Virus record (IMG/VR): IMGVR_UViG_3300044655_001044
Location: 1-50,929 of that record
Direction: 5' to 3' (one strand)
Origin: a virus
Length of the DNA: 50,929 bases
Positions 1,002-31,065 of this stretch are shown one piece after another; within the stretch, counting starts at the first letter, position 1; every line of letters starts with the position of its first letter. A model generated the notes under the pieces. That model made no database searches. It was given only the letters and a program-made list of their open reading frames with translations, and was not told where the DNA came from. A program made the translations under genes and the position numbers.

Positions 1002-1685
1002 ATGAAGGTATTAGGACCAAAAGAAACCGGCAGAGGATTATTAATTGAGTATGATGCTGGTCACGTATCTCCAGAAGAGAATAAAAAAATAATTTCAGAA
1101 ATGAAGAACATGGACTTCTCACAGGACATGATTCTTTATGCTGTTTTACAAAAATATGACACTCCAAATAAGAACGGAAGGATTTATCCTGAGATGTTAC
1201 TTAAGAGAGAAAACGAAAAATACCAAACAATTATTAAGAAGGGTGGAGCTTTAAATGAATTAAATCACCCAACATCTTCACTTATTGATTTAGATAGAAT
1301 TTCACATTCAATTCTAGAAACATGGTGGGATGGTAAAATCCTTATGGGTAAGATAAAACTATTCACTTCTCCAGGTTGGAAGAAGATGGGTATTGTTTCT
1401 ACCAAAGGAGACCAAGCTGCTATGTTATTAATGAACGGAGCAACTTTGGGTATCTCTTCACGTGGAGTAGGTTCACTTAAACAAGTTAAAGGTGAGAACA
1501 TTGTACAAGAGGACTTTGAATTAGTTTGTTTTGATTTAGTTTCATCACCATCTACACCTGGCGCATATGTTTTTAGTGACCCATCTGAAAGAGACCAATA
1601 TCAAGAATCTACAATTGAAAAACCCGTAGTTGAGGACAGAATGAAAAAACTAATGGGTAGATTAGATACATTTCTATCTAAATAA
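1002..1685 (+). CDS. gp21: Prohead maturation protease, gp21-like
   Basis: This 227-residue serine protease cleaves scaffold, capsid and internal proteins during head maturation in T4-like phages. Visible family signatures are NGRIYP (58-63), NELNHP with the probable catalytic His89, GISSRG with the probable catalytic Ser152 or Ser153, and LVCFDLVSSPSTPGA near 164-178. The length is close to T4 gp21 (212). The C-terminus carries DRMKKLMGRLDTF; an R-M/I-K-x-L-M pattern recurs at the ends of the scaffold and several accessory proteins in this window and may be a core- or shell-binding peptide (inference). The gene directly precedes scaffold and capsid genes, as in T4, and has its own late-type promoter. 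Confidence 0.93.
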   Translation: MKVLGPKETGRGLLIEYDAGHVSPEENKKIISEMKNMDFSQDMILYAVLQKYDTPNKNGRIYPEMLLKRENEKYQTIIKKGGALNELNHPTSSLIDLDRISHSILETWWDGKILMGKIKLFTSPGWKKMGIVSTKGDQAAMLLMNGATLGISSRGVGSLKQVKGENIVQEDFELVCFDLVSSPSTPGAYVFSDPSERDQYQESTIEKPVVEDRMKKLMGRLDTFLSK

Positions 1686-1773: not shown

Positions 1774-3006
1774 ATGAGCGAAAAATCTATTTTAGAACAA
1801 GCGTTACTTCAAGTGCAAAACCTTGAAGAAGCTGTTAAGCAAAATGCAAAAGGTATACTTGCTTCTACAATGAAACAAGAACTAAGCGACTTGCTTAAAG
1901 AATCGTTAGAAGAAGAGGAGAAGTTAGATCCAATGGGTGAACAACCTGAAGACGAAACTAAACCTGACGAAGAGGAAGATGATGTAACAACAGATGATGA
2001 AGCTGACACCGATGGTGAAGATGCTGACACTGATGTTGAAGATGCTGACACAGACCTCGATAATGAACCAAGTAAAGGAATCGATGACTTAGATTCTGAA
2101 GCTGGTGATGATACCGATACATCTATGGATGATTTAGGTACTGAACCATCTCCAGAAGAAGGTATGGATGACGAAGACGTTATGGACATGACAGGAGCTT
2201 CAGATGATGAGGTTCTTAAAGTTTTCAAGGCTATGAAACCAGAAGATGGTATCGTAGTTAAGAAAGATGGTAATAACGTTGAATTTGCTGACGGTCAAGA
2301 TGAGTACATCATCAAACTTGATAGTGAGGAAACTCCTGATGTTGATACAGATATGGACACAGATTTAGATACTGATATGGGTTCTGAAATGGACACAGAT
2401 TTCGGTGCTGAAACTGACGAAACTTCTGATGATGCAGAAATGGATGAAACTTTATATGAAATTGAGTTAGGTGAAGACGAAGATGAAGTTAAGGAAGTAG
2501 AAGCTTCTGAAGGTGAAGCTAAAGAAGTTGAAGTTGGTGAAGCAGCAAGAACATTGGGTAACGATGTTAGAAAGCCAGCTGACCAAGGTAAAAAATATAA
2601 AGCGGGTCGTCATGAAATGAATGAAGAAGTTGAAAAGTTAAAGAAACAAAATTCTGAGTACAAGAAGGCTTTAATTCTTTTCAAAGACAAGCTTAATGAA
2701 GTTGCAGTATTCAACGCAAACTTAGCTTACGCTACTCGTTTATTCACTGAACATTCTACAACAAAACAAGAGAAATTGAATATTTTAAAGAGATTTGATT
2801 CTATTTCTTCTATGAATGAAGCTAAAACTTTATTCGCAACAATAAAAACTGAATTAGGTACTAAAACAACTGTAACTGAATCAGTGGCTGAAAAAATCAC
2901 TAACATGCCATCAACATCTACTTCTACTGAGGTTTTAGCTGAGTCAAAAGCTTACGAAAATCCACAGTTCAAAAGAATGAAAGATTTGATGACAAAAATA
3001 AAATAA
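1774..3006 (+). CDS. gp22: Prohead core scaffold, gp22-like
   Basis: A 410-residue, very acidic protein between protease and capsid genes. Residues about 45-150 and 185-230 are low-complexity Asp/Glu/Thr runs with repeated DADTD, DTDLD and DTDMD units. About 275-320 is a basic/acidic helical segment (EEVEKLKKQNSEYKKAL) typical of scaffold coiled coils, and the C-terminus ends ENPQFKRMKDLMTKIK. Scaffold proteins of T4-like phages form the internal core on which gp23 assembles and are then digested by gp21. Several I/L-x-E tripeptides, such as ILE in the first 10 residues, fit gp21 cleavage. It is longer than T4 gp22 (269) because of the acidic repeats. Starts and ends support a single intact frame. 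Confidence 0.88.
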   Translation: MSEKSILEQALLQVQNLEEAVKQNAKGILASTMKQELSDLLKESLEEEEKLDPMGEQPEDETKPDEEEDDVTTDDEADTDGEDADTDVEDADTDLDNEPSKGIDDLDSEAGDDTDTSMDDLGTEPSPEEGMDDEDVMDMTGASDDEVLKVFKAMKPEDGIVVKKDGNNVEFADGQDEYIIKLDSEETPDVDTDMDTDLDTDMGSEMDTDFGAETDETSDDAEMDETLYEIELGEDEDEVKEVEASEGEAKEVEVGEAARTLGNDVRKPADQGKKYKAGRHEMNEEVEKLKKQNSEYKKALILFKDKLNEVAVFNANLAYATRLFTEHSTTKQEKLNILKRFDSISSMNEAKTLFATIKTELGTKTTVTESVAEKITNMPSTSTSTEVLAESKAYENPQFKRMKDLMTKIK

Positions 3007-3033: not shown

Positions 3034-4773
3034 ATGGGAGCATTATTAGAATCAGGTATGGTTGGTAACATCGGATTAAAACATTTACGTGTTATCAAGG
3101 AAGATACCATTAAAAAATGGGACGAATTAGGTTTCTTAGAAAACTTAGAAGGTCACCAAAAAGATAATATCGCGCAATTGTATGAAAACCAAGCGTCATA
3201 TTTGATTAACGAAGCGGCTGTAGCAGATTCTTCAGGTTCTTTTGAAACTGTAGTTTTCCCTATCATCCGTCGTGTATTCTCTAAGTTATTAGCGAATGAC
3301 ATCGTATCAGTACAAGCAATGAACTTACCAATTGGTAAATTGTTCTTCTTCGTACCTAAAATCCAAGAAAGAGATGGTAATGGTCATTACTCTCCTTATG
3401 GATATCCAAATACAACTGATGCTGCAACTGCTGGATACCCTGCAACTGCAAAAAATCTTTACGATCGTTTTTACGAAAGTAGTGACGCAGCAACTGAAGG
3501 TCTTTTTGATTATTCAAAAGGTTCATTCACTGATGTTTCTTTAACTGGTACATCTATTGTAACTTTTGCAAATGGTGTTGAAACTTCTGGTGTAACTATC
3601 AGTACAGGTACCGATGTTTCATCAGTTATCTTAAAGTTAACAGGTTTCTCTGTATTAGGTCAAGGTAAATTAGCTGGTCCAGACGGTAACGAAATGGATA
3701 CAGAAGAGTTTTTAGCTTCATTAACAATCACTGCACCTCGTGCAAATGCGTTAAGTGGTAGAACTTTCTTACCTTTCAACGTTGTAACACAAAAATATGG
3801 TAAAGGTATCGTATCTTACGGAGTAAAAGCTTCAGGTACAAACGGTAACTTATTCCAAGATATTTGCGATGCAGATGGTGCAATTTACTTAAATGTTGAT
3901 TTACAAACTTACAGTTCAACTGCAGGTTTTTCAGATACGGAAATTGTAGTTACAACATTACAAGGTAATGATTTTACAGCAACTTATCGTCAATATGCAT
4001 CTTTAGAATTTGAAGATCAAATTGGTGAGGTTTCTTTTGATTTAGAATCGGTAACAGTTTCTGTAACTGAAAGAAAATTAAGAGCTAGCTGGTCTCCTGA
4101 ATTGGCTCAAGACGTTAGTGCATTCCACAACATCGACGCTGAAGCAGAATTGACAGCTTTATTATCAGAGCAAATTGCTGCTGAAGTTGACCGTGAAATC
4201 TTACGTGATTTACGTAAAGGTGCGGCATGGAAAGCTAAATGGGATTACAATGAGTGGAAATACGGTGGAAACGGTGGTGCAACTTTACAAGGTTACACAC
4301 AAAAAGACTGGAACCAAACTTTAGTTACTAAAGTTAACCAAATTTCAGCTCAAATCCATAAAACAACCTTAAGAGGTGGTGCTAACTGGATTGTAGTTTC
4401 TTCTGAAGTTTCTGCAGTATTTGATGATTTGGAATATTTCCACGTATCAAACGCAGCTCCTGAGCAAGATTCTTACAACATGGGTATTGAGAAAATCGGT
4501 TCTTTGGCAGGTCGCTACCAAGTATACCGTGATCCTTACTTCCCAGCTAACAAAATCTTGATTGGTCATAAAGGAAAATCTTTATTGGATGCAGGTTATG
4601 TATACGCACCATATGTGCCATTACAATTGACTCCAACAATGTACAATCCTTTCACAATGACTCCTATCAAAGGTATCATGACTCGTTACGCAAAGAAAAT
4701 GGTGAACAACCGTTACTTTGGTATCATCGATGTACAAGGTATCACAACATTTGATATGAATACATTAAGATAA
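3034..4773 (+). CDS. gp23: Major capsid protein, gp23-like
   Basis: A 579-residue HK97-fold capsid protein. The core aligns with T4 gp23: RKLRASWSPELAQDVSAFHNID corresponds to the T4 segment RQLKASYSIELAQDLRAVHGMD, followed by AEAELTALLSEQI. The precursor cleavage site is visible as INE|A at residues 58-61 (YLINEAAVADSSG), matching T4 FLTE|A after residue 65, so the first 60 residues are a removable peptide. It is longer than T4 gp23 (521), mostly through a beta-rich insertion around 145-290. Codon use is strikingly more C-ending than in neighbours (for example ATC, TAC, TTC, CGT), as expected for the most highly expressed gene. It starts at ATG 3034 after an A-rich leader without a Shine-Dalgarno sequence and is closed by a strong terminator. 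Confidence 0.95.
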   Translation: MGALLESGMVGNIGLKHLRVIKEDTIKKWDELGFLENLEGHQKDNIAQLYENQASYLINEAAVADSSGSFETVVFPIIRRVFSKLLANDIVSVQAMNLPIGKLFFFVPKIQERDGNGHYSPYGYPNTTDAATAGYPATAKNLYDRFYESSDAATEGLFDYSKGSFTDVSLTGTSIVTFANGVETSGVTISTGTDVSSVILKLTGFSVLGQGKLAGPDGNEMDTEEFLASLTITAPRANALSGRTFLPFNVVTQKYGKGIVSYGVKASGTNGNLFQDICDADGAIYLNVDLQTYSSTAGFSDTEIVVTTLQGNDFTATYRQYASLEFEDQIGEVSFDLESVTVSVTERKLRASWSPELAQDVSAFHNIDAEAELTALLSEQIAAEVDREILRDLRKGAAWKAKWDYNEWKYGGNGGATLQGYTQKDWNQTLVTKVNQISAQIHKTTLRGGANWIVVSSEVSAVFDDLEYFHVSNAAPEQDSYNMGIEKIGSLAGRYQVYRDPYFPANKILIGHKGKSLLDAGYVYAPYVPLQLTPTMYNPFTMTPIKGIMTRYAKKMVNNRYFGIIDVQGITTFDMNTLR

Positions 4774-5563: not shown

Positions 5564-6316
5564 TTACCAAGATTTACAAGCCCAATATCTAGGTTTCCAA
5601 CGAGGACCTGGATTGTCACAATTCATACGTGCTCTAAAGTTCTTTCTTCTTGCAGGGTTATTTTTCTTAATAACCATTCTTTTACCTTTCGCAGATTTAC
5701 CGCCAAATCCGAAATTAACCTTAACGACTTTACCTTTATCGTTTTTAACATATACTTTAAACTTCTTAATATCTCCTTGCATGATTTTTCCAAGTTGAAC
5801 TTTACGTCCTTGATATTCGGCTTCATTTAATAAACCACCATTGTATTCAAAATTGGTATTTTCAACAGAACCATCCTCATCTTCGTATATTAACACAGTA
5901 GTGTCTTCGTTATATTCAAAAAGCCTTTCAAATTGTTCTTCAGATATTTGAATTATTGTTCTTTTTTCCATACTCTCATCAAATTTAGTCATTGTTGGTT
6001 TATTACCCTTACCCACTTTTGGGTCTTTTTTTTCTGCTCTTCTTTTTTGTGATGTCATTGCTTTCTTATCTTTTTTACTGTAAGATGAAGCAACTTTTGG
6101 AGTTTCATTAGACACCTTTTTAGAAGGTCTACATTTTGGATATGATTTGCCGTCAGCATCTTTTCTACCACAAGGAGGGTGTTTACCATCTACCTTTTTA
6201 CTAACATCTACCCACTTTTCTTTAAACCATCTTGCAAGGTCTTCTCTTAAAACCTCGCCTGATTTAATACATTCGTTTATATACTCTTTATCTTCCTTTG
6301 AAACAATGATTTTCAT
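5564..6316 (-). CDS. Tagged virion protein of two joined modules
   Basis: A 250-residue basic protein that looks like two virion proteins joined. Module 1: tag MKIIVSKEDKEYI, then about 29-106 with WFKEKWVDVSKKVDGKHPPC, YPKCRPSKKVS and SQKRRAEKKDP, a conserved basic, Cys-containing domain known from several marine and T4-like phages. Module 2: a second tag at 116-134 (MEKRTIIQISEEQFERLF), then GLLNE|AEYQGRKVQLGKI at 161-178 and a C-terminal domain (KFKVYVKND, KVVKVNFGFGG, PARRKNFRARMNC, YWACKSW). ISE and LNE|A fit prohead-protease sites, LNE|A being like the capsid site INE|A. Release of the C-terminal domain in the capsid is inference. It is the last gene of a tightly packed operon. Confidence 0.8.
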   Translation of the reverse strand: MKIIVSKEDKEYINECIKSGEVLREDLARWFKEKWVDVSKKVDGKHPPCGRKDADGKSYPKCRPSKKVSNETPKVASSYSKKDKKAMTSQKRRAEKKDPKVGKGNKPTMTKFDESMEKRTIIQISEEQFERLFEYNEDTTVLIYEDEDGSVENTNFEYNGGLLNEAEYQGRKVQLGKIMQGDIKKFKVYVKNDKGKVVKVNFGFGGKSAKGKRMVIKKNNPARRKNFRARMNCDNPGPRWKPRYWACKSW

Positions 6317-6317
6317 G

Positions 6318-6596
6318 TTATTTAATTTTATTTACCTCATTAACAAATTTATGACACTTATCGGATACCTTACCCTTATCGTGGTCTGTAATAGATAACT
6401 TCACATTATCGTAATGAACTGTCATATCAGGGTGATGATTCTGTTTGTTAGCAATTTTCATCACCTCATTAGTAAATGACATAACTTCCTTATAATCTTT
6501 AAAATAAAATGTTTTAATTAATTTACCGTTTGTTTCCACCCAATCATTAATATTCATAATTTTATTTTTTTGGTCTTCGGTTATTATTATTCTCAT
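6318..6596 (-). CDS. Pterin-4a-carbinolamine dehydratase with N-terminal tag
   Basis: A 92-residue protein. Residues about 16-92 match pterin-4a-carbinolamine dehydratase (PCD/DCoH), which dehydrates 4a-hydroxy-tetrahydropterin during recycling of the cofactor of aromatic amino acid hydroxylases. The active-site signature is visible: NHHP, then Tyr six residues later (DMTVHY), then nine residues to His (TDHDKG), followed by VSDKCHKFVNEV. The usual Glu four before the first His is Asn here (ANKQNHHP), and THD is replaced by TDHD, so activity is uncertain. The first residues, MRIIITEDQKNKI, are not part of PCD but are the tag shared with neighbouring proteins and contain ITE|D. The gene lies 1 nt from each neighbour, so co-expression is certain if the operon is transcribed. 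Confidence 0.85.
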   Translation of the reverse strand: MRIIITEDQKNKIMNINDWVETNGKLIKTFYFKDYKEVMSFTNEVMKIANKQNHHPDMTVHYDNVKLSITDHDKGKVSDKCHKFVNEVNKIK

Positions 6597-6597
6597 A

Positions 6598-7359
6598 TTA
6601 TAATTTAGTGTCTTTAACGAATTTTTTGTGAGAATCTTTATATGATTTTAATGATTCATCATTAATATCTTTAGAATATTGCCAATTCCAATATAAATCA
6701 TCATTTGTTTTGAAACCATAAAATTCATGAACTTTCTTTTGTAAATCATTAACATTTACACCGTTAAAATTTTGACCCGTACATATAAAACCAGTTTCAA
6801 TATCTTTAACTAAATTAGATTCACCTAACGCTGTGTGTCTATTTTCTATCCAAGTTAGACGTTCGATTAGATTTTGATAAAACATATTTGTTTGTCCCCA
6901 TCTAACGGAACTTAGAAATACCACAGCATCTGATTCAAATAGTTCTTTACTTATTTTCCAAAGTTCATCTTTAGGGTTGTTAACACTGGCCCAACATCTA
7001 TGGTGACCGGTTGGATTTTTATCTTTATCCTTAAGTTTTGATTTTAATAAACCACAACTATTACCGTCTTTTCTTGATACGTTACCCTCACAAGGAACAA
7101 TATTTAATTCTGAAACGTCTATCAATGTTGATTTATCACCCAATTCATCGTTAAGATACATCGCAATCATTTTAGATTTTGGTATATCAATATCATTTTT
7201 GTCCCAATTATGTCTATTAGAACAACTTAATAATAAAACTTTTTTCTTCTTTTTAAGAACATCCAATGTTTTCTTTAAAGATTTCCAAGCATCAGATTGT
7301 ACCATCTCCTCAGAAATCATCATTTGTTTAATCCTTTGTATATTCTCTTCTAAATTCAT
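6598..7359 (-). CDS. Flavodoxin-like NAD(P)H-dependent oxidoreductase with N-terminal tag
   Basis: A 253-residue protein. From residue 38 (KVLLLSCSNR) it follows the flavodoxin-like fold of NADPH-dependent FMN reductases and iron-sulfur flavoproteins: beta strand and phosphate loop, a Cys-containing segment (ELNIVPCEGNVS, CGLLKSK, HHRCW), then ELFESDAVVFLSSVRWGQ at about 141-158 and NLIERLTWIENRHTALGE, which would bind flavin. The Cys spacing is not a clear cluster motif, so an Fe-S centre is only possible. The first 20 residues, MNLEENIQRIKQMMISEE, are extra and combine R-I-K-x-M-M with ISE, both recurring in virion-type proteins here. Redox cargo packaged in the particle is a hypothesis. 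It abuts the next gene upstream without a gap. Confidence 0.8.
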   Translation of the reverse strand: MNLEENIQRIKQMMISEEMVQSDAWKSLKKTLDVLKKKKKVLLLSCSNRHNWDKNDIDIPKSKMIAMYLNDELGDKSTLIDVSELNIVPCEGNVSRKDGNSCGLLKSKLKDKDKNPTGHHRCWASVNNPKDELWKISKELFESDAVVFLSSVRWGQTNMFYQNLIERLTWIENRHTALGESNLVKDIETGFICTGQNFNGVNVNDLQKKVHEFYGFKTNDDLYWNWQYSKDINDESLKSYKDSHKKFVKDTKL

Positions 7360-8016
7360 TTATTTACATTTTCTCCAACCACCACCTTTTGCTTTATAAT
7401 CTTTCGCTGCGAATCCATTTGCGTAAGCTGAAGGGTATACGTCAAATTTAGATTTAGCTTTAGCCTTAGATGCTGCCCATTTTGCAGGGTCTGTTGGGCA
7501 GTTTTTACTTTCGTCTATTGCCATTGCTTCATACATCTCCCTTTCTGACACATTTTTAGGTTCAACACCTTTTTTCTTCATATTGATTGCAATTGCGGCT
7601 TGTTGTGCAGGACTACTCGCTTCATTTACAGGAACACAGTTTGGAACTTTTTTACCGTTCTTCATCTTAGAACCAACTTGTTTGTAACCGTCCCAACATT
7701 TTTCGTCAAGTTGTCCTTCTTCATTCATACTAAACTGATCCATATCAGCAGTTACATCTTGACTATCTTTACGTTTTGTTTCGTTCATAAAGAAATCAAA
7801 AACTTGATCCATATTGTTTTTAGCTTCAGATACATGATCATCTGCCCAATCGTGACCATTTTTAATAATTTGGTCCAATTCTTGGGGATTCATTTTCATT
7901 AACATTTCACATTGTCTGTGAATTTGTTGTAAATTACCGAAAAACATATAGTTTTCAGTTGTTTGACTTTCAATTATTTTCTTTAATTGATCTTCGCTAA
8001 TTATAATTTTCTTCAT
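7360..8016 (-). CDS. Tagged multi-domain virion protein, probable polyprotein
   Basis: A 218-residue protein, taken from ATG 8016 because a late-type octamer lies at 8020-8027, inside any longer frame. It begins with the tag MKKIIISEDQLKKIIES, followed by a helical region (20-80). Three short conserved phage domains follow, each directly after an I/L/V-x-E tripeptide: LDE|K (103-106) before CWDGYKQVGSKMKNGKKVPN; VNE|A (130-133) before SSPAQQAAIAINMKKKG; IDE|S (167-170) before NCPTDPAKW and PSAYANGFAAKDYKAKGGGW. The sites match the specificity of T4 gp21, so cutting into small basic pieces inside the head is plausible but untested. It is the first gene of the operon 8016-5564. Confidence 0.8.
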   Translation of the reverse strand: MKKIIISEDQLKKIIESQTTENYMFFGNLQQIHRQCEMLMKMNPQELDQIIKNGHDWADDHVSEAKNNMDQVFDFFMNETKRKDSQDVTADMDQFSMNEEGQLDEKCWDGYKQVGSKMKNGKKVPNCVPVNEASSPAQQAAIAINMKKKGVEPKNVSEREMYEAMAIDESKNCPTDPAKWAASKAKAKSKFDVYPSAYANGFAAKDYKAKGGGWRKCK

Positions 8017-20867: not shown

Positions 20868-21698
20868 TTATGAAAACATTAAACGCTTAATGTTTTTAAT
20901 ACTTTCTTGAAGTTTCTTATTTTCATCCTCTTCTTCAGGATTTGCAACAGGTTTTTCTGTTGGTTTTGGTTGAGGTAATTCTTTTTCAACTTCCTTTTTA
21001 AATCTTTCTCTTGTACCTTGACCTGGTTTAGTATTACCACCAACCTCTTTTTGTTTATTAATCCAATCAACTTCTTTAGCTTTATATAGTTCTTTTCCTT
21101 TATCAACCGTATCTTGTGGTGTTGGTTCAGGTTTAGTTTGAGGTTTTGGTTGAGGTAACTCTGTTGTCTTTGGTTCTTGTGATGTTGTAACCTCCGGCTC
21201 TGTTGGTGTTGGTTCCGTAGGTTCAGTTGTAGGAGTAGTTGGTTTAGTAACAATAGGTTTAACAATCCTTGGTTTTTTAACTTCAGGTTTATTTGTCCAA
21301 TCGGAAGTTACATAAGTAACACTCATAGATTTATCGTCACCTTCTTTATAATCGGGTCTTTTTTGGTCAAACTTACTATCACTAACCTTTAAATTACTCA
21401 TACGACCAACCATAAAAGTTCTCCAACCTGTTTTATCAAATCCTTTTTTGGATACTGATGGTGGTTGGACATACGCACGAACAACTAAATTACCTTTTTT
21501 ATTTAAACCTAACGCAACCGCTTCTGCGTCAATTCTATTACCTGGTTTAACACTATTTTTTGCGGGTTTTCTTGGCCCACTATAAAAAAAAGATATCTTA
21601 TTCCTACTTTTGATTGCATCAACAATAGGTTTTGTTTTAGTCGTCTTTAATATATTTTGTTCTTCAATAACATCGAAGAATGTTTGATTAAAATTCAT
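20868..21698 (-). CDS. WYL-like domain protein with Pro/Thr linker and conserved tail
   Basis: A 276-residue protein. Residues about 30-130 follow the phage WYL-like domain pattern: ISFFYSGPRKPAKNSVKPGN, AVALGLNKKGNLVVRAYVQP, GWRTFMVGRMSNLKVSDSKF, RPDYKEGDDKSMSVTYV. Such domains bind ligands or nucleic acid in bacterial regulators; in phage proteins of this kind the role is unknown. A Pro/Thr/Glu linker (about 145-200) follows, then charged helices ending LQESIKNIKRLMFS, matching the R-x-K-x-L-M tail of other proteins here. DVIEEQ near the N-terminus (I-E-E) could be a prohead protease site. Its ATG overlaps the stop of the gene before it by 1 nt. Confidence 0.7.
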   Translation of the reverse strand: MNFNQTFFDVIEEQNILKTTKTKPIVDAIKSRNKISFFYSGPRKPAKNSVKPGNRIDAEAVALGLNKKGNLVVRAYVQPPSVSKKGFDKTGWRTFMVGRMSNLKVSDSKFDQKRPDYKEGDDKSMSVTYVTSDWTNKPEVKKPRIVKPIVTKPTTPTTEPTEPTPTEPEVTTSQEPKTTELPQPKPQTKPEPTPQDTVDKGKELYKAKEVDWINKQKEVGGNTKPGQGTRERFKKEVEKELPQPKPTEKPVANPEEEDENKKLQESIKNIKRLMFS

Positions 21699-22094: not shown

Positions 22095-22589
22095 TTATAA
22101 CATTAATTTTTTTATTCTTTGTAATTGTTCAAACAAACCTGATAATTTAATACTTGATATTGAAGATTTATGTGAATTACTTTTCATCATATTCAAAGGA
22201 GGTAAGAAATCTGGCTTCTTTGAATGTTTTTTCAAATGACTATTTTTTCTTTCCCCTGTTATCCCACCAATATCATCAGCCTGTTTTCTTCCGTCTTTTC
22301 TATTACTCACCATATCTCTTTCACCTTGTAGGTATTGTTTGGACCACATATCCATTAATTCACCACCAGCCAAGTCATACCTAACTCTATCACCAATTTT
22401 ATCAATATTTTGTAAGTCATGTATAATTCTTTTTAACTGTCCATATTTAACTTTTTTATCTATTAAAAGTTTCTTAGCTCTTTGTACACCATGAACATGT
22501 GTTCCGTTAAGACCAACAATTGTGTGGTTAATCTTATCTAAAATGTTCTGCGGTATATCAAATATCCTATGTTTTAAATCCTTATTCAT
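22095..22589 (-). CDS. Unassigned basic protein with conserved tail
   Basis: A 164-residue basic protein. The first 85 residues are helical (QNILDKINHTIVGLNGTHV, AKKLLIDKKVKYGQLKRII). The middle is polar and probably flexible (SNRKDGRKQADD, HLKKHSKKPDF). It ends LFEQLQRIKKLML, again the R-I-K-x-L-M tail. No family is recognised. It overlaps the preceding gene by 8 nt. Its charge and tail suggest a capsid internal or accessory protein (inference). Confidence 0.68.
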   Translation of the reverse strand: MNKDLKHRIFDIPQNILDKINHTIVGLNGTHVHGVQRAKKLLIDKKVKYGQLKRIIHDLQNIDKIGDRVRYDLAGGELMDMWSKQYLQGERDMVSNRKDGRKQADDIGGITGERKNSHLKKHSKKPDFLPPLNMMKSNSHKSSISSIKLSGLFEQLQRIKKLML

Positions 22590-23355
22590 TATCTTTTTTA
22601 ATATAATTAATTACATCGTCAGCAGTTAAACCGTGACTATCCATACTATTTTTTAATGAATTAAGTTGTCTTTTAATAATTGGGTGTATTTCTTTTGGTT
22701 CAACTTCTTCCTTTTCCTTTTCTAAAACATCATTATCTTTACTTCTACCTTTAAGAATACTCTCAATATATTCCTCCATATACTTCTTTGGGTTCTCAAC
22801 TAATCTAACCTTATCGTCAGGTAAATTTTTATCATAACCCATTTGATCCATTCTATCTTCAGTTTCTTCACTGTCCAAACCTAAATCTTTTTCAAAATAT
22901 TCTTCAGCCTCTTCGTAATCTGCGTCATTTCCCATTGTTGCATCAAATCCAAGAGCATCTTTCATTGCAATTTCAATAAGTTCTCCTTTGGTTAATTTAC
23001 CCTCTCCCCAGAACTTTGTGTAGTTTTGAACCTTAGTCATACCGTAATTACCCATCATACCTTTACCAGTTAGAGCCACTTCATCACTTGTTGAATCGGA
23101 ACTAACACCTTTAGCATCTAAATCCGAAGGTTTTTTACTTGTTAAGATATTACCATTTTTATCTACAATCTCATCCACCTCTTCTTCTTTTTCTACTTTA
23201 TCAGGTATTTTATTATAATCTGTTTTATCAGAAAACTCTTTGGCCCATTTGGACCACTTCTTATTTTTACCCCCTTTGGCTTTTGCATAGAAGAATCTTT
23301 GTTGTGCTTTTGATGCAAATTTCTCCTCAATTACCTGTTTTATAAAATTATTCAT
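22582..23355 (-). CDS. SKAQQRFF-domain protein, probable virion protein
   Basis: A 257-residue acidic protein. The N-terminus has IEEKFASKAQQRFFYAKAKG, where SKAQQRFF is a known phage-protein motif (DUF3008-like) often followed, as here, by a Lys/Trp-rich helix (KKWSKWAKEFSDKT). The IEE just before it could be an I-x-E protease site. The middle is Asp/Glu-rich and partly disordered; the end (KRQLNSLKNSMDSHGLTADD then VINYIKK) is helical. It is the first gene of the minus block 23355-18990 and has a late-type octamer. Function is unknown. Confidence 0.72.
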   Translation of the reverse strand: MNNFIKQVIEEKFASKAQQRFFYAKAKGGKNKKWSKWAKEFSDKTDYNKIPDKVEKEEEVDEIVDKNGNILTSKKPSDLDAKGVSSDSTSDEVALTGKGMMGNYGMTKVQNYTKFWGEGKLTKGELIEIAMKDALGFDATMGNDADYEEAEEYFEKDLGLDSEETEDRMDQMGYDKNLPDDKVRLVENPKKYMEEYIESILKGRSKDNDVLEKEKEEVEPKEIHPIIKRQLNSLKNSMDSHGLTADDVINYIKKDNE

Positions 23356-23378: not shown

Positions 23379-23395
23379 TCAAATGTTATGAAAGA

Positions 23396-23403
23396 TATTT
23401 ATA
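23396..23403 (+). promoter_or_regulatory. Late-type promoter, rightward
   Basis: TATTTATA ends 5 nt before ATG 23409. An in-frame ATG at 23388 lies upstream of the octamer and would be excluded from the transcript, so 23409 is the start. Confidence 0.6.
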
Positions 23404-23408
23404 TAAAC

Positions 23409-25529
23409 ATGGCTAATCAGAATATTTTAAGATTTTACGGTTCCAAACTCGATTTAAAGGTAGATTATTCCGAATTATATGACTATGAACTATCAAAAGT
23501 TCAAATGGATTATAATGAAGAGGTCTTAGATTTCGACACGGAAATAACATATACAGGACTAACTATCGATTCTTCTTGTTTAACGGGACTAACTTCACCT
23601 TGGGAAGTTGCGGTGAATACTCGTTATACGGGAGACACCTGTGATTTTACTGTTCGTAGAAGAACAGAGAAGGGTTGGACATTAGATTTGGTTTTTGATA
23701 GATTAGTAACTGGAACGACATTTTACTATTTAGGAATTAAAGATGATTTGGCTAATGGGAATTACGCGGATAATAATTTAACATTCTCATTTACCAATAA
23801 TAAAAAGATAAAATGGGAGTCATTTCATTATTCGGGATTATGTAATCCAGATAGTGGGTACACGGAGTCATATTACACAATAACAGGTAATACTCCTGAA
23901 TTATGTGCAAATGGAATATATGACGATTTTAATATTACAATCACATTTGATAGATACACATATCTTTATGGTTGTGAGATTGAGAATGAGGGGGGATTTA
24001 ATGATTTAATATTAGGTCCACACGCAGTTAGTTATACTGATGAATTATGGGCTCCGACAACTGGTGATACTGGTAGTTTCTTTTCGGGTTCATTTATAGG
24101 TCACTCAACACAAATCACCACAGGTTATACAATGGTTACCGGATCATTAAATTGGATTACGGGGGATACTGAATATAGTTATGTGGAAGAATTAAATAAA
24201 AAATGGGCAGGAGAAAAACAAAAAAGATTAGGAACACTTAAAATTTATCATAACGGTAAAAGAATATATAAATTAGAAAACTTTGAGGAAATAATTCCAT
24301 CATTAAGGTCTTCTGAAAATGAAATCGTACAAATTTTTGGTAATAATTCACTTAATGGTGTTTTAAAACAAGTTAAGTATTTTGAAGAACCGTTGGATTT
24401 TGTTCATGTTAATCATCATTATTTAACATCAATTAAACCAAATTATTCAATATATGGTTGTTCAGATGTTTTACCAAGCCCAACACCAACACCAACTAAC
24501 ACACCAACACCTACTAATACTGTTACTCCTACTAATACTGTTACACCAACTAATACATCAACCAATACACCAACACCAAGTATTACACCTACAAACACTC
24601 CTACTAACACAATTACTTCGACACCAACAAATACCGTTACTCCAACGCAAACGCCGACTAATACACCGACTAACACACCAACACCAACAGGAAGTGAAAC
24701 CCCAACACCTACTCCAACTAACACACCAACTCCTACGGTTACTGAAACACCTACGCAAACTCCAACGAATACACCCACTAATACCCCCACTAATACGGTC
24801 ACACCTACCAATTCAGTTACACCCACACCAAGTGTCGCCGCAAGTGGGATAACTACAAGCAATTTAGTATTACATTACGACCCATCAAACCTTTCTTCAT
24901 ATCCTGGTAGTGGAACAACAATTAATGATTTATCAGGTAATGATTTGAATGGAACAATGAGTAATATAACATATACATCACCATACTTCACATACAATGG
25001 TTCTTCATCACAAATTTCAGTTGCAGATAATGCGGCATTAGAACCGGGAAGTGGTGATTGGACAGTAGAAGTTTGGGTGAATCAATCAGTAGCAGGTAAT
25101 GATGTAGTACTTGGTAAATTTAACGCAGCTGGGTTAACAACAAGTGTGGGTTATAGTGTTAGAACAACTGCTTCAACATTTTATGGACAATATGGTTCGG
25201 GTGCGGGTTCAGGATCAACACTATTTGTTAATAGTACAAACCACACCGCAACACTTAATACATGGTATCAAATAGTTTATGTATTTACTAATGTTGCGGC
25301 CAATACATTTCAAACATTTGTTAATGGTGTTAGTATCGGTACTGTAAATCACAGTTTAGCAAGTATATTAAACACTACTACAAACTTATACATTGGTTCA
25401 TATAATAATGGTGAATACCCACAATACTTTGATGGTAAGATTGGTATAACCCGTTTATATAGTAGTGCATTAACATCAACTGAAGTTTTGAATAACTATA
25501 ACGCAGACAAATCTAAATACGGTTTATAA
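23409..25529 (+). CDS. Host-binding adhesin with TPT-rich stalk and LamG domain
   Basis: A 706-residue tail protein. Residues 1-350 are beta-rich and unassigned, perhaps an attachment part to the tail. About 355-476 is a stalk of Thr-Pro repeats (TPTNTPT, TVTPTN). About 480-706 is a laminin G/concanavalin-like domain: [88 protein letters not shown]. Such domains bind sugars, so this is a likely receptor-binding or capsule-binding fibre. A rigid or glycosylated Thr-rich stalk would present the domain; glycosylation by the phage glycosyltransferases is possible but unproven. No signal peptide is visible. Confidence 0.85.
24472..24837 (+). repeat. Imperfect DNA repeat coding for the TPT stalk
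   Basis: About 366 nt of imperfect 6- and 12-nt units (ACACCA, ACTAAT, CCTACT variants) encode about 122 residues of Thr-Pro-Thr-Asn repeats. Synonymous variation between units argues for old repeats, but the region could still change length by recombination. Confidence 0.85.
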
Positions 25530-30045: not shown

Positions 30046-31065
30046 ATGATAGAAATATATCCTTACAGTCCTTATAATTTAAGACACAATTATTTTCATA
30101 ACCTTTTTCAGAATGATACATTTAAGTCATATTATATTAAAAAATGTAATGAGGTCTTCAAAAGAAATGGTGAGAGACTTGGAATTTGGGGTTTCTGGTG
30201 GAGAGGAAATTATGGTATTTTAAATGAACAATCAATTTGGTGTTGGAGAAATACCGTTAATACACATCCTTATTGTACTTTAGATCTCTTTTATTTATAT
30301 AAACATTTTAAAAATGAAACCTTAGATTACGATAATCCGACCACGTTATTTGAAAATATTGATAAGTTATTTGAATTTGTAGATGAGAACTTTGATTTAT
30401 TTTTTACTATGAACATTGAAGAAAAATATTTTAAAAATTTTTGGCGTCGTTGTAATAAATCTTGGGGAAGAGGTCAGGTAACCACTATTGCAGTTATGTA
30501 TAAAATAAGGGAACTTTTTCCTGACTGTAAAATACTTAAAATGGATTTTAGTATTATGAGAGGGGACGGTAACGATTTTAAAGGTATTGACATAATAATT
30601 GAAAATGATTGTGGTGAAATAATAACAATACAAGTTAAATCGGGAAAAATAATTCAAGAAAATGAAATAGGTTTTGTTGTTGAAAGTTCAGTTAATGATT
30701 TAAAATCAAAAGCTAAATATTATTGTTTTGTTGATTTTAAAGACAATAAAACAACAATAGTCACATTTCAAAATTTATTACAATATATAATAAGAGGAAC
30801 TATAAATCATACTTTCCGTAAGGAAATATTACAACCAATAAAAATTAATGAACATATGGAAGTACCTGAAACTTTACATAAAATTACAGAATTTATCTAT
30901 AACAAACCTGAATTAATAATTGAATTACAATATGTTAAAAGCGGTACCAATTTAATGGAAATTAAAGATGATGTCGTAATGATAACAATTGGTAATTTTT
31001 TAGATGAAAATTTATCAAATGAATTGTCTGAGTTTTTTATAAAATTACAAGAGACTTTTAAGTAA
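30046..31065 (+). CDS. PD-(D/E)XK nuclease-like accessory protein
   Basis: A 339-residue protein. Around 165-200 the segment KMDFSIMRGDGNDFKGIDII followed by ENDCGEIITIQVKSGK has the layout of a PD-(D/E)XK nuclease core: Asp182 in GID, then the hydrophobic strand with Gln196 and Lys198 (Q-V-K). The next strand (KAKYYCFVDFKDNKTTIVTF) also fits. The N-terminal 140 residues are Trp/Tyr/Phe-rich (GIWGFWWRGNYG, IWCWRN, NFWRRCNKSWGRGQ) and unlike anything I know. It has its own host-type promoter in an otherwise late region, so it is probably an early accessory gene that acts on host or rival DNA or in packaging (inference). It overlaps the helicase gene by 21 nt at its 3' end. Confidence 0.6.
   Translation: MIEIYPYSPYNLRHNYFHNLFQNDTFKSYYIKKCNEVFKRNGERLGIWGFWWRGNYGILNEQSIWCWRNTVNTHPYCTLDLFYLYKHFKNETLDYDNPTTLFENIDKLFEFVDENFDLFFTMNIEEKYFKNFWRRCNKSWGRGQVTTIAVMYKIRELFPDCKILKMDFSIMRGDGNDFKGIDIIIENDCGEIITIQVKSGKIIQENEIGFVVESSVNDLKSKAKYYCFVDFKDNKTTIVTFQNLLQYIIRGTINHTFRKEILQPIKINEHMEVPETLHKITEFIYNKPELIIELQYVKSGTNLMEIKDDVVMITIGNFLDENLSNELSEFFIKLQETFK

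Follow-up and report, generated by a model that had tools for sequence, protein, structure and literature searches.

What is encoded by a short gene of a T4-like phage whose product carries a protease-like site ahead of each of its small domains? We analysed a whole virus record of 50,929 bases (the window), and the gene in question specifies a protein of 218 residues. The original prediction, made from the letters of the DNA, described a possible capsid polyprotein that the maturation protease cuts into several small basic peptides; it located the gene correctly (Table 1), and the strand is minus. We give a probability of about 60% to the following reading, which draws on sequence comparison: the protein would be a capsid-targeted modular polyprotein, with a tag that docks it, a gp21-type protease that cuts it and basic modules that stay with the DNA. 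Its matches in PHROGs are to families of unknown function only, and a PDB sequence search with it gave no match. Module D bears a weak likeness to Pfam DUF5872, a family present in the neighbouring protein 5564-6316, and was rejected as a member because its 13.9 bits fall below the Pfam gathering cut-off of 27.5.

Table 1. Coordinates of the features discussed, in positions of the window; a slash marks a putative cut
Feature	Position	Strand	Remark
Source record IMGVR_UViG_3300044655_001044	1 to 50,929		Virus record
gp21-type prohead protease (Peptidase_S77)	1002..1685	plus	Pfam, 78 bits
Very acidic scaffold-like protein	1774-3006	plus	No family match
Major capsid protein gp23	3034..4773	plus	250 bits
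Neighbour of same build: tag, LRE/DLARWF (DUF5872), internal ISE/EQF, LNE/AEYQGRKV module E	5564..6316	minus	
Gene for 218-residue modular protein, tag - A - B - C - D	7360..8016	minus	Start ATG at 8016, stop ends at 7360
N-terminal tag, residues 1-16 (MKKIIISEDQLKKIIE)	7969..8016	minus	Ends ISE/D and IIE/S
Module A, residues 22-79 (NYMFFGN...FMNE)	7780..7953	minus	Helical; from homologues and model
VSE62-64 within module A	7825..7833	minus	Predicted helix, poorly conserved
LDE103-105, putative cut ahead of module B	7702..7710	minus	
Module B, residues 106-129 (KCWDGYKQVG..KKVPNCVP)	7630..7701	minus	Predicted beta hairpin, basic
VNE130-132, putative cut ahead of module C	7621..7629	minus	
Module C, residues 133-155 (ASSPAQQAAIAINMKKKGVEPKN)	7552..7620	minus	Predicted helix
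IDE167-169, putative cut ahead of module D	7510..7518	minus	
Module D, residues 170-218 (SKNCPTDPAKW..GGGWRKCK)	7363..7509	minus	Net charge +9

A candidate protease is encoded in the same genome. Its S77 protein and T4 gp21 (PDB 5jbl) align at an E-value of 5e-12, and the alignment gives a putative triad of H89, S153 and D178, in which the serine and aspartate are kept and the histidine is at the expected place; the solved chain of 5jbl has alanine at the triad histidine position. T4 gp21 cuts after the glutamate of L/I-x-E (PMC9026906). Its substrates are gp23, which sheds 65 residues (PMC9026906), together with gp24, Alt, the internal proteins, gp22, gp67 and gp68 (PMC9026906, PMC5694885). 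The gp23 of the window has a putative maturation site, LINE/AA, after residue 60, and LINE/A is invariant in all relatives that retain the N-terminal region. The VNE/A at the border of modules B and C is nearly identical to this site. The 218-residue protein has these features of an S77 substrate: an S77 protease in the same genome, L/I-x-E at its borders (at C partly T-x-E) and a match to the phage's own gp23 site.

The sites that had been named at the borders, LDE/K (residues 103-106), VNE/A (130-133) and IDE/S (167-170), are all there, each directly preceding one of three modules, as is the ISE of the N-terminal tag (residues 6-8). Further [LIV]xE sites that had gone unmentioned are IIE/S at the end of the tag (14-16), VSE/A in the first domain (62-64) and VSE/R (156-158). 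This makes seven sites, against 1.9 expected from shuffles (sd 1.25, P=0.0011). None of 20,000 full shuffles put an [LIV]xE two residues or less from every one of the three module starts, and only one of 20,000 did so when the linkers alone were shuffled (P=5e-5). The number of sites is weak evidence on its own, and was rejected as sole evidence, because an apparently unrelated open reading frame of the window, apparently not a head protein (30046-31065, plus strand), is richer in the motif, with 17 occurrences against 6.4 expected (z 5.1). Conservation among relatives carries more weight.

Relatives were collected by scanning IMG/VR, with 80 loci each for the whole protein, for module D, for module E of the neighbour and for modules B and C together. 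The architectures of these homologues are mosaics (A-D, A-C-D, A-B-C-D, tag-B-C-D and A-E), and there are long chains that combine F (DUF5872), D, B and E. Modules and N-terminal tags are deleted, reordered and swapped, yet the border site is nearly always retained. Where a module is deleted, a site is left at the new junction, as in LTE/AKAKKNKP from A to D, VNE/ASS from A to C and LQE/SCW from tag to B. The tags are exchanged for unrelated-looking ones (MKVIKLKENDLRKYIAKIIKE, MKNLEDIIKKHLRTISE, MINPRIKRIIETAIKE), which for the most part likewise end in [IVL]xE, and tags like those of this family are found on unrelated proteins as well. One protein (locus L079, 2370-2789) has module A twice in tandem, beginning YMFFNNLE... 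and then VKE/NHSNENYMFFGNIE...

Border sites were counted in 66 non-redundant members with the motif [LIVM]xE. The motif stands at the end of the tag, ahead of module A, in 54 of 58 homologues, ahead of module B in 21 of 23 and ahead of module D in all 53, the last count being made in a wide window with a background of about 40%; the background for a four-residue window in the same proteins is about 11%. Ahead of module C the glutamate is present in 25 of 25, with the full motif in 18 and TNE/A in the other seven, and we count these threonines at P3 against the polyprotein reading. In the DNA contexts of this border the glutamate is kept in 38 of 38 and P3 is threonine in 13 of 38. The original prediction had proposed an alignment in which border sites would be conserved while linkers vary, and had named borders lacking L/I/V-x-E as evidence against cutting. 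The first pattern is what we see at the tag, B and D; the second appears at the C border only, as T-x-E in about a quarter of relatives, where the hydrophobic residue is not always kept. Sites away from the borders are kept less often: VSE156-158 in 3 of 22 homologues and VSE62-64 in 35 of 57. We rejected both as likely cut sites. VSE62-64, which falls in a predicted helix, is probably not one, and the presence of a comparable VSE inside module A in 61% of homologues also weighs against the polyprotein reading.

Another count, of 113 junctions, takes one representative per distinct upstream sequence, from T4-like sources only, and covers five module types. A site precedes module B in 29/34, C in 9/13, D in 19/21, E in 33/33 and F in 11/12, so that the rule extends to the modules of the neighbouring protein. 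Overall, 101 of the 113 non-redundant junctions (89%) have a site against a background of 11%, a comparison in which the junctions are not fully independent if, as may be the case, modules and their upstream sites are inherited together. P3 is mostly leucine or isoleucine (valine at C), P2 is free and P1 is glutamate. Because the border glutamate uses both GAA and GAG, and P3 several synonymous codons, selection acts on the amino acids at the sites. Retention of the sites supports a polyprotein with probable cleavage at its borders.

We also ran AlphaFold2 on the alignment, obtaining a model of low confidence overall (mean pLDDT 68, pTM 0.32). It has a helix in the tag (residues 8-17), a helical A (23-83), a beta hairpin in B (111-129), a helix in C (136-149) and a compact D (172-216). 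The stretches 16-19, 83-104 and 155-165 have a pLDDT below 50 and are disordered in the model, and the border glutamates 105, 132 and 169 are placed in loops, with VSE62-64 in a helix. A fold search of the model against solved structures gave nothing below an E-value of 0.001. The predicted pieces carry charges of -12 (17-105), +4 (106-132), -1 (133-169) and +9 (170-218), and the intact chain is close to neutral (+1). The expectation of small basic peptides is thus borne out for B and D; residues 17-105 form an acidic piece and 133-169 an approximately neutral one.

In the reading that we favour, the chain would be docked in the prohead core by its N-terminal tag. As the head matures, the S77 protease would cut it after residues 8 or 16, 105, 132 and 169, in each case just behind the glutamate of an [L/I/V]-x-E that closes the tag or marks a border of modules A, B, C and D. 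Of the small modules so freed, two or more are strongly basic, and the basic pieces would stay with the packaged DNA and might be injected along with it. That the products are kept, and that they bind DNA or act in the host, is what we infer for the modules.

Judged by its sequence, the protein is probably a variant of the T4 gp21 substrates, in which a tag like the capsid-targeting sequence (CTS) is combined with the multi-site cutting of the core proteins. Like the T4 core proteins gp22, gp67 and gp68, it comes with a phage-encoded S77 protease and has several L/I-x-E sites per chain; the scraps of the core proteins mostly leave, whereas in our protein the sites separate modules that are conserved and swappable. 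Like the T4 internal proteins IPI-III and Alt (CTS), it starts with a short tag closed by a gp21-type site, residues 1-8 or 1-16 ending in ISE or IIE where T4 has a propeptide of 10-19 residues, and it is probably carried in the head as they are. The T4 internal proteins have one mature domain and one N-terminal cut, whereas about three more cuts are predicted here and each of four modules has a preceding site; we rejected an ordinary T4 internal protein because there are several modules. By eye, the tag does not look similar to the T4 CTS, a further point against the polyprotein reading. The giant phages phiKZ and SPN3US, with an S80-type protease and AxE/SxE motifs, also make several post-glutamate cuts in one head protein (PMC10052503, PMC5694885); these extra cuts lie in discarded propeptides (PMC10052503), and both the motif and the protease family differ from the present case. 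Polyvalent proteins (Iyer et al. 2017) are phage proteins that combine several domains in a mosaic; their delivery and their separation by cutting have been proposed (PMC5512222). The 218-residue protein shares with them, through module swapping, a mosaic chain of several unrelated domains. They carry their own peptidase domain, whereas none was matched in our protein in Pfam, PHROGs or NCBIfam, and cutting would fall to the head protease, in trans; the modules of the family are also only about 25-60 residues long, unlike those of polyvalent proteins. For want of an embedded peptidase, we rejected membership of the polyvalent proteins as Iyer et al. define them.

Two rival explanations would keep part of this scheme. 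The protein could belong to the disposable core, as T4 gp67, gp68 and gp22 do, in which case gp21 would cut it at many sites only to let the pieces out of the head ahead of packaging, and they would have no later role. T4 gp22, gp67 and gp68 do break up into several fragments, and most of these depart (PMC9026906, PMC5694885); the acidic charge of the piece containing module A (-12) would fit. We nevertheless consider this unlikely, since the modules are far better conserved than the spacers and are swapped as units, and since module D stands alone as a gene in phages without S77. Such free-standing genes occur in two phages, DSL-LC04 (MMSKPTPTDPSKW...) and C72C1 (VAASKPKNPSLW...); neither complete record gave a match to S77, and module D should therefore have a function of its own. 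Stand-alone relatives of 44-57 residues are also found in BFVD. We also know of no T4 core protein that is a mosaic of swappable modules, and have counted this against the disposable core. Slightly less probable again is the removal of the N-terminal tag alone, with the rest remaining one multidomain internal protein and the LxE at the borders serving as module boundaries or binding motifs. The single N-terminal cut of T4 internal proteins is a precedent, and the conservation of P1' and P2' beside modules E, F and C suggests that the site moves with the module. Against this, the stand-alone module D genes begin just where IDE/ would be cut and have no LxE, so the motif is not part of the module D fold, and unrelated modules with different spacing obey the same rule. 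Moreover, most B modules in records without S77 have no site: it is found ahead of module B in 26/31 sequences from records with S77 and 8/20 from records without (Fisher p = 0.002, with kinship ignored and records that may be incomplete), a contrast that is only suggestive. S-TIM5, from a record without S77, has no site at this border (HKEDDDPCW), and most of the S77-less sequences that do have one are fragments of T4-like look. On the other side of the ledger for cutting at the borders, the B-border site is less faithfully retained among S77-bearing cyanophages, and an LDE also precedes a B-like module in HRTV-4, which lacks S77.

The other two rivals would do away with the head protease. 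That the sites are a functionless by-product of hydrophobic, glutamate-rich linkers finds some encouragement in the 19% glutamate of the upstream linkers and in the stronger excess in 30046-31065; the shuffles, the 89% retention against 11% background and the synonymous codon change at the glutamate already disfavour it, and we regard it as highly improbable. Cutting by a host protease instead of the phage head protease seems to us the least probable of all: the motif is short, but it fits the specificity of gp21 as well as the phage's own gp23 site.

The polyprotein reading can be carried over to the neighbouring protein 5564-6316. Its DUF5872 match has an E-value of 2e-12, and its parts alternate in charge, with +15 for the DUF5872 part, -11 for the spacer and +21 for module E. 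A second tag-like stretch (IIQISEEQFERLF) occurs in the middle of this protein. As a more tentative proposal, somewhat short of even odds, T4-like phages of aquatic bacteria may share a general cargo system, in which swappable capsid tags are joined to strings of small modules, each after a head-protease site, and one gene delivers several small proteins into the head and perhaps the next host; the acidic spacer, in a neutral precursor (net +1), would hold the basic DNA-binding modules in check until the cut. If so, the T4-like head-maturation protease would be a general processor of polyprotein cargo, and its work would extend past the trimming of scaffold and shell. With the site rule, sequence would be enough to pick out the packaged ones among the many small aquatic-phage proteins that lack a name, along with their cut positions and mature pieces, and T4 internal proteins and polyvalent proteins would be united in one scheme. 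In the open-access literature searched, we found no account of swappable modules separated by prohead-protease sites, and on phage polyproteins cut by head proteases nothing beyond the cases cited above.

Tagged proteins are also seen in cyanophages. Two NMNAT/cytidylyltransferase proteins start with MKSFLQFLKE/AA (L349 3001-4230) and MKSFSQFLTE/TT (L350 2501-3775), which by eye are close to the T4 capsid-targeting sequence. The former, a short tag ending LKE/A, is that of the NMNAT in the record of cyanophage S-SCSM1. This NMNAT has been detected in virions by mass spectrometry (PMC9602691), which supports the packaging of related tagged proteins. Adjacent to it is SSCSM1_93, a virion protein of 69 residues (L349 5808-6017) that is a stand-alone SKAQQRF module. 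The same module follows a tag in 22582-23355 of the window (minus strand), as MNNFIKQVIEE/KFASKAQQRFF.

Several other genes of the window deserve mention. A pterin-4a-carbinolamine dehydratase (6318-6596, minus strand; Pfam E 4e-18) has a tag-like start, MRIIITE/D, and is possibly an enzyme packaged in the virion. The product of 6598-7359 (minus strand) is weakly FMN-reductase/flavodoxin-like, with a tag-like N-terminus, MNLEENIQRIKQMMISE/E. Its tag ENIQRIKQMM is resembled by the C-termini of 20868-21698 and 22095-22589 (minus strand), ESIKNIKRLMFS and EQLQRIKKLML, and by this likeness one short element may serve at either end of a protein. Lastly, 23388-25529 (plus strand) has a long repeat followed by a stretch that by eye looks laminin-G/lectin-like, and is a probable virion surface protein.
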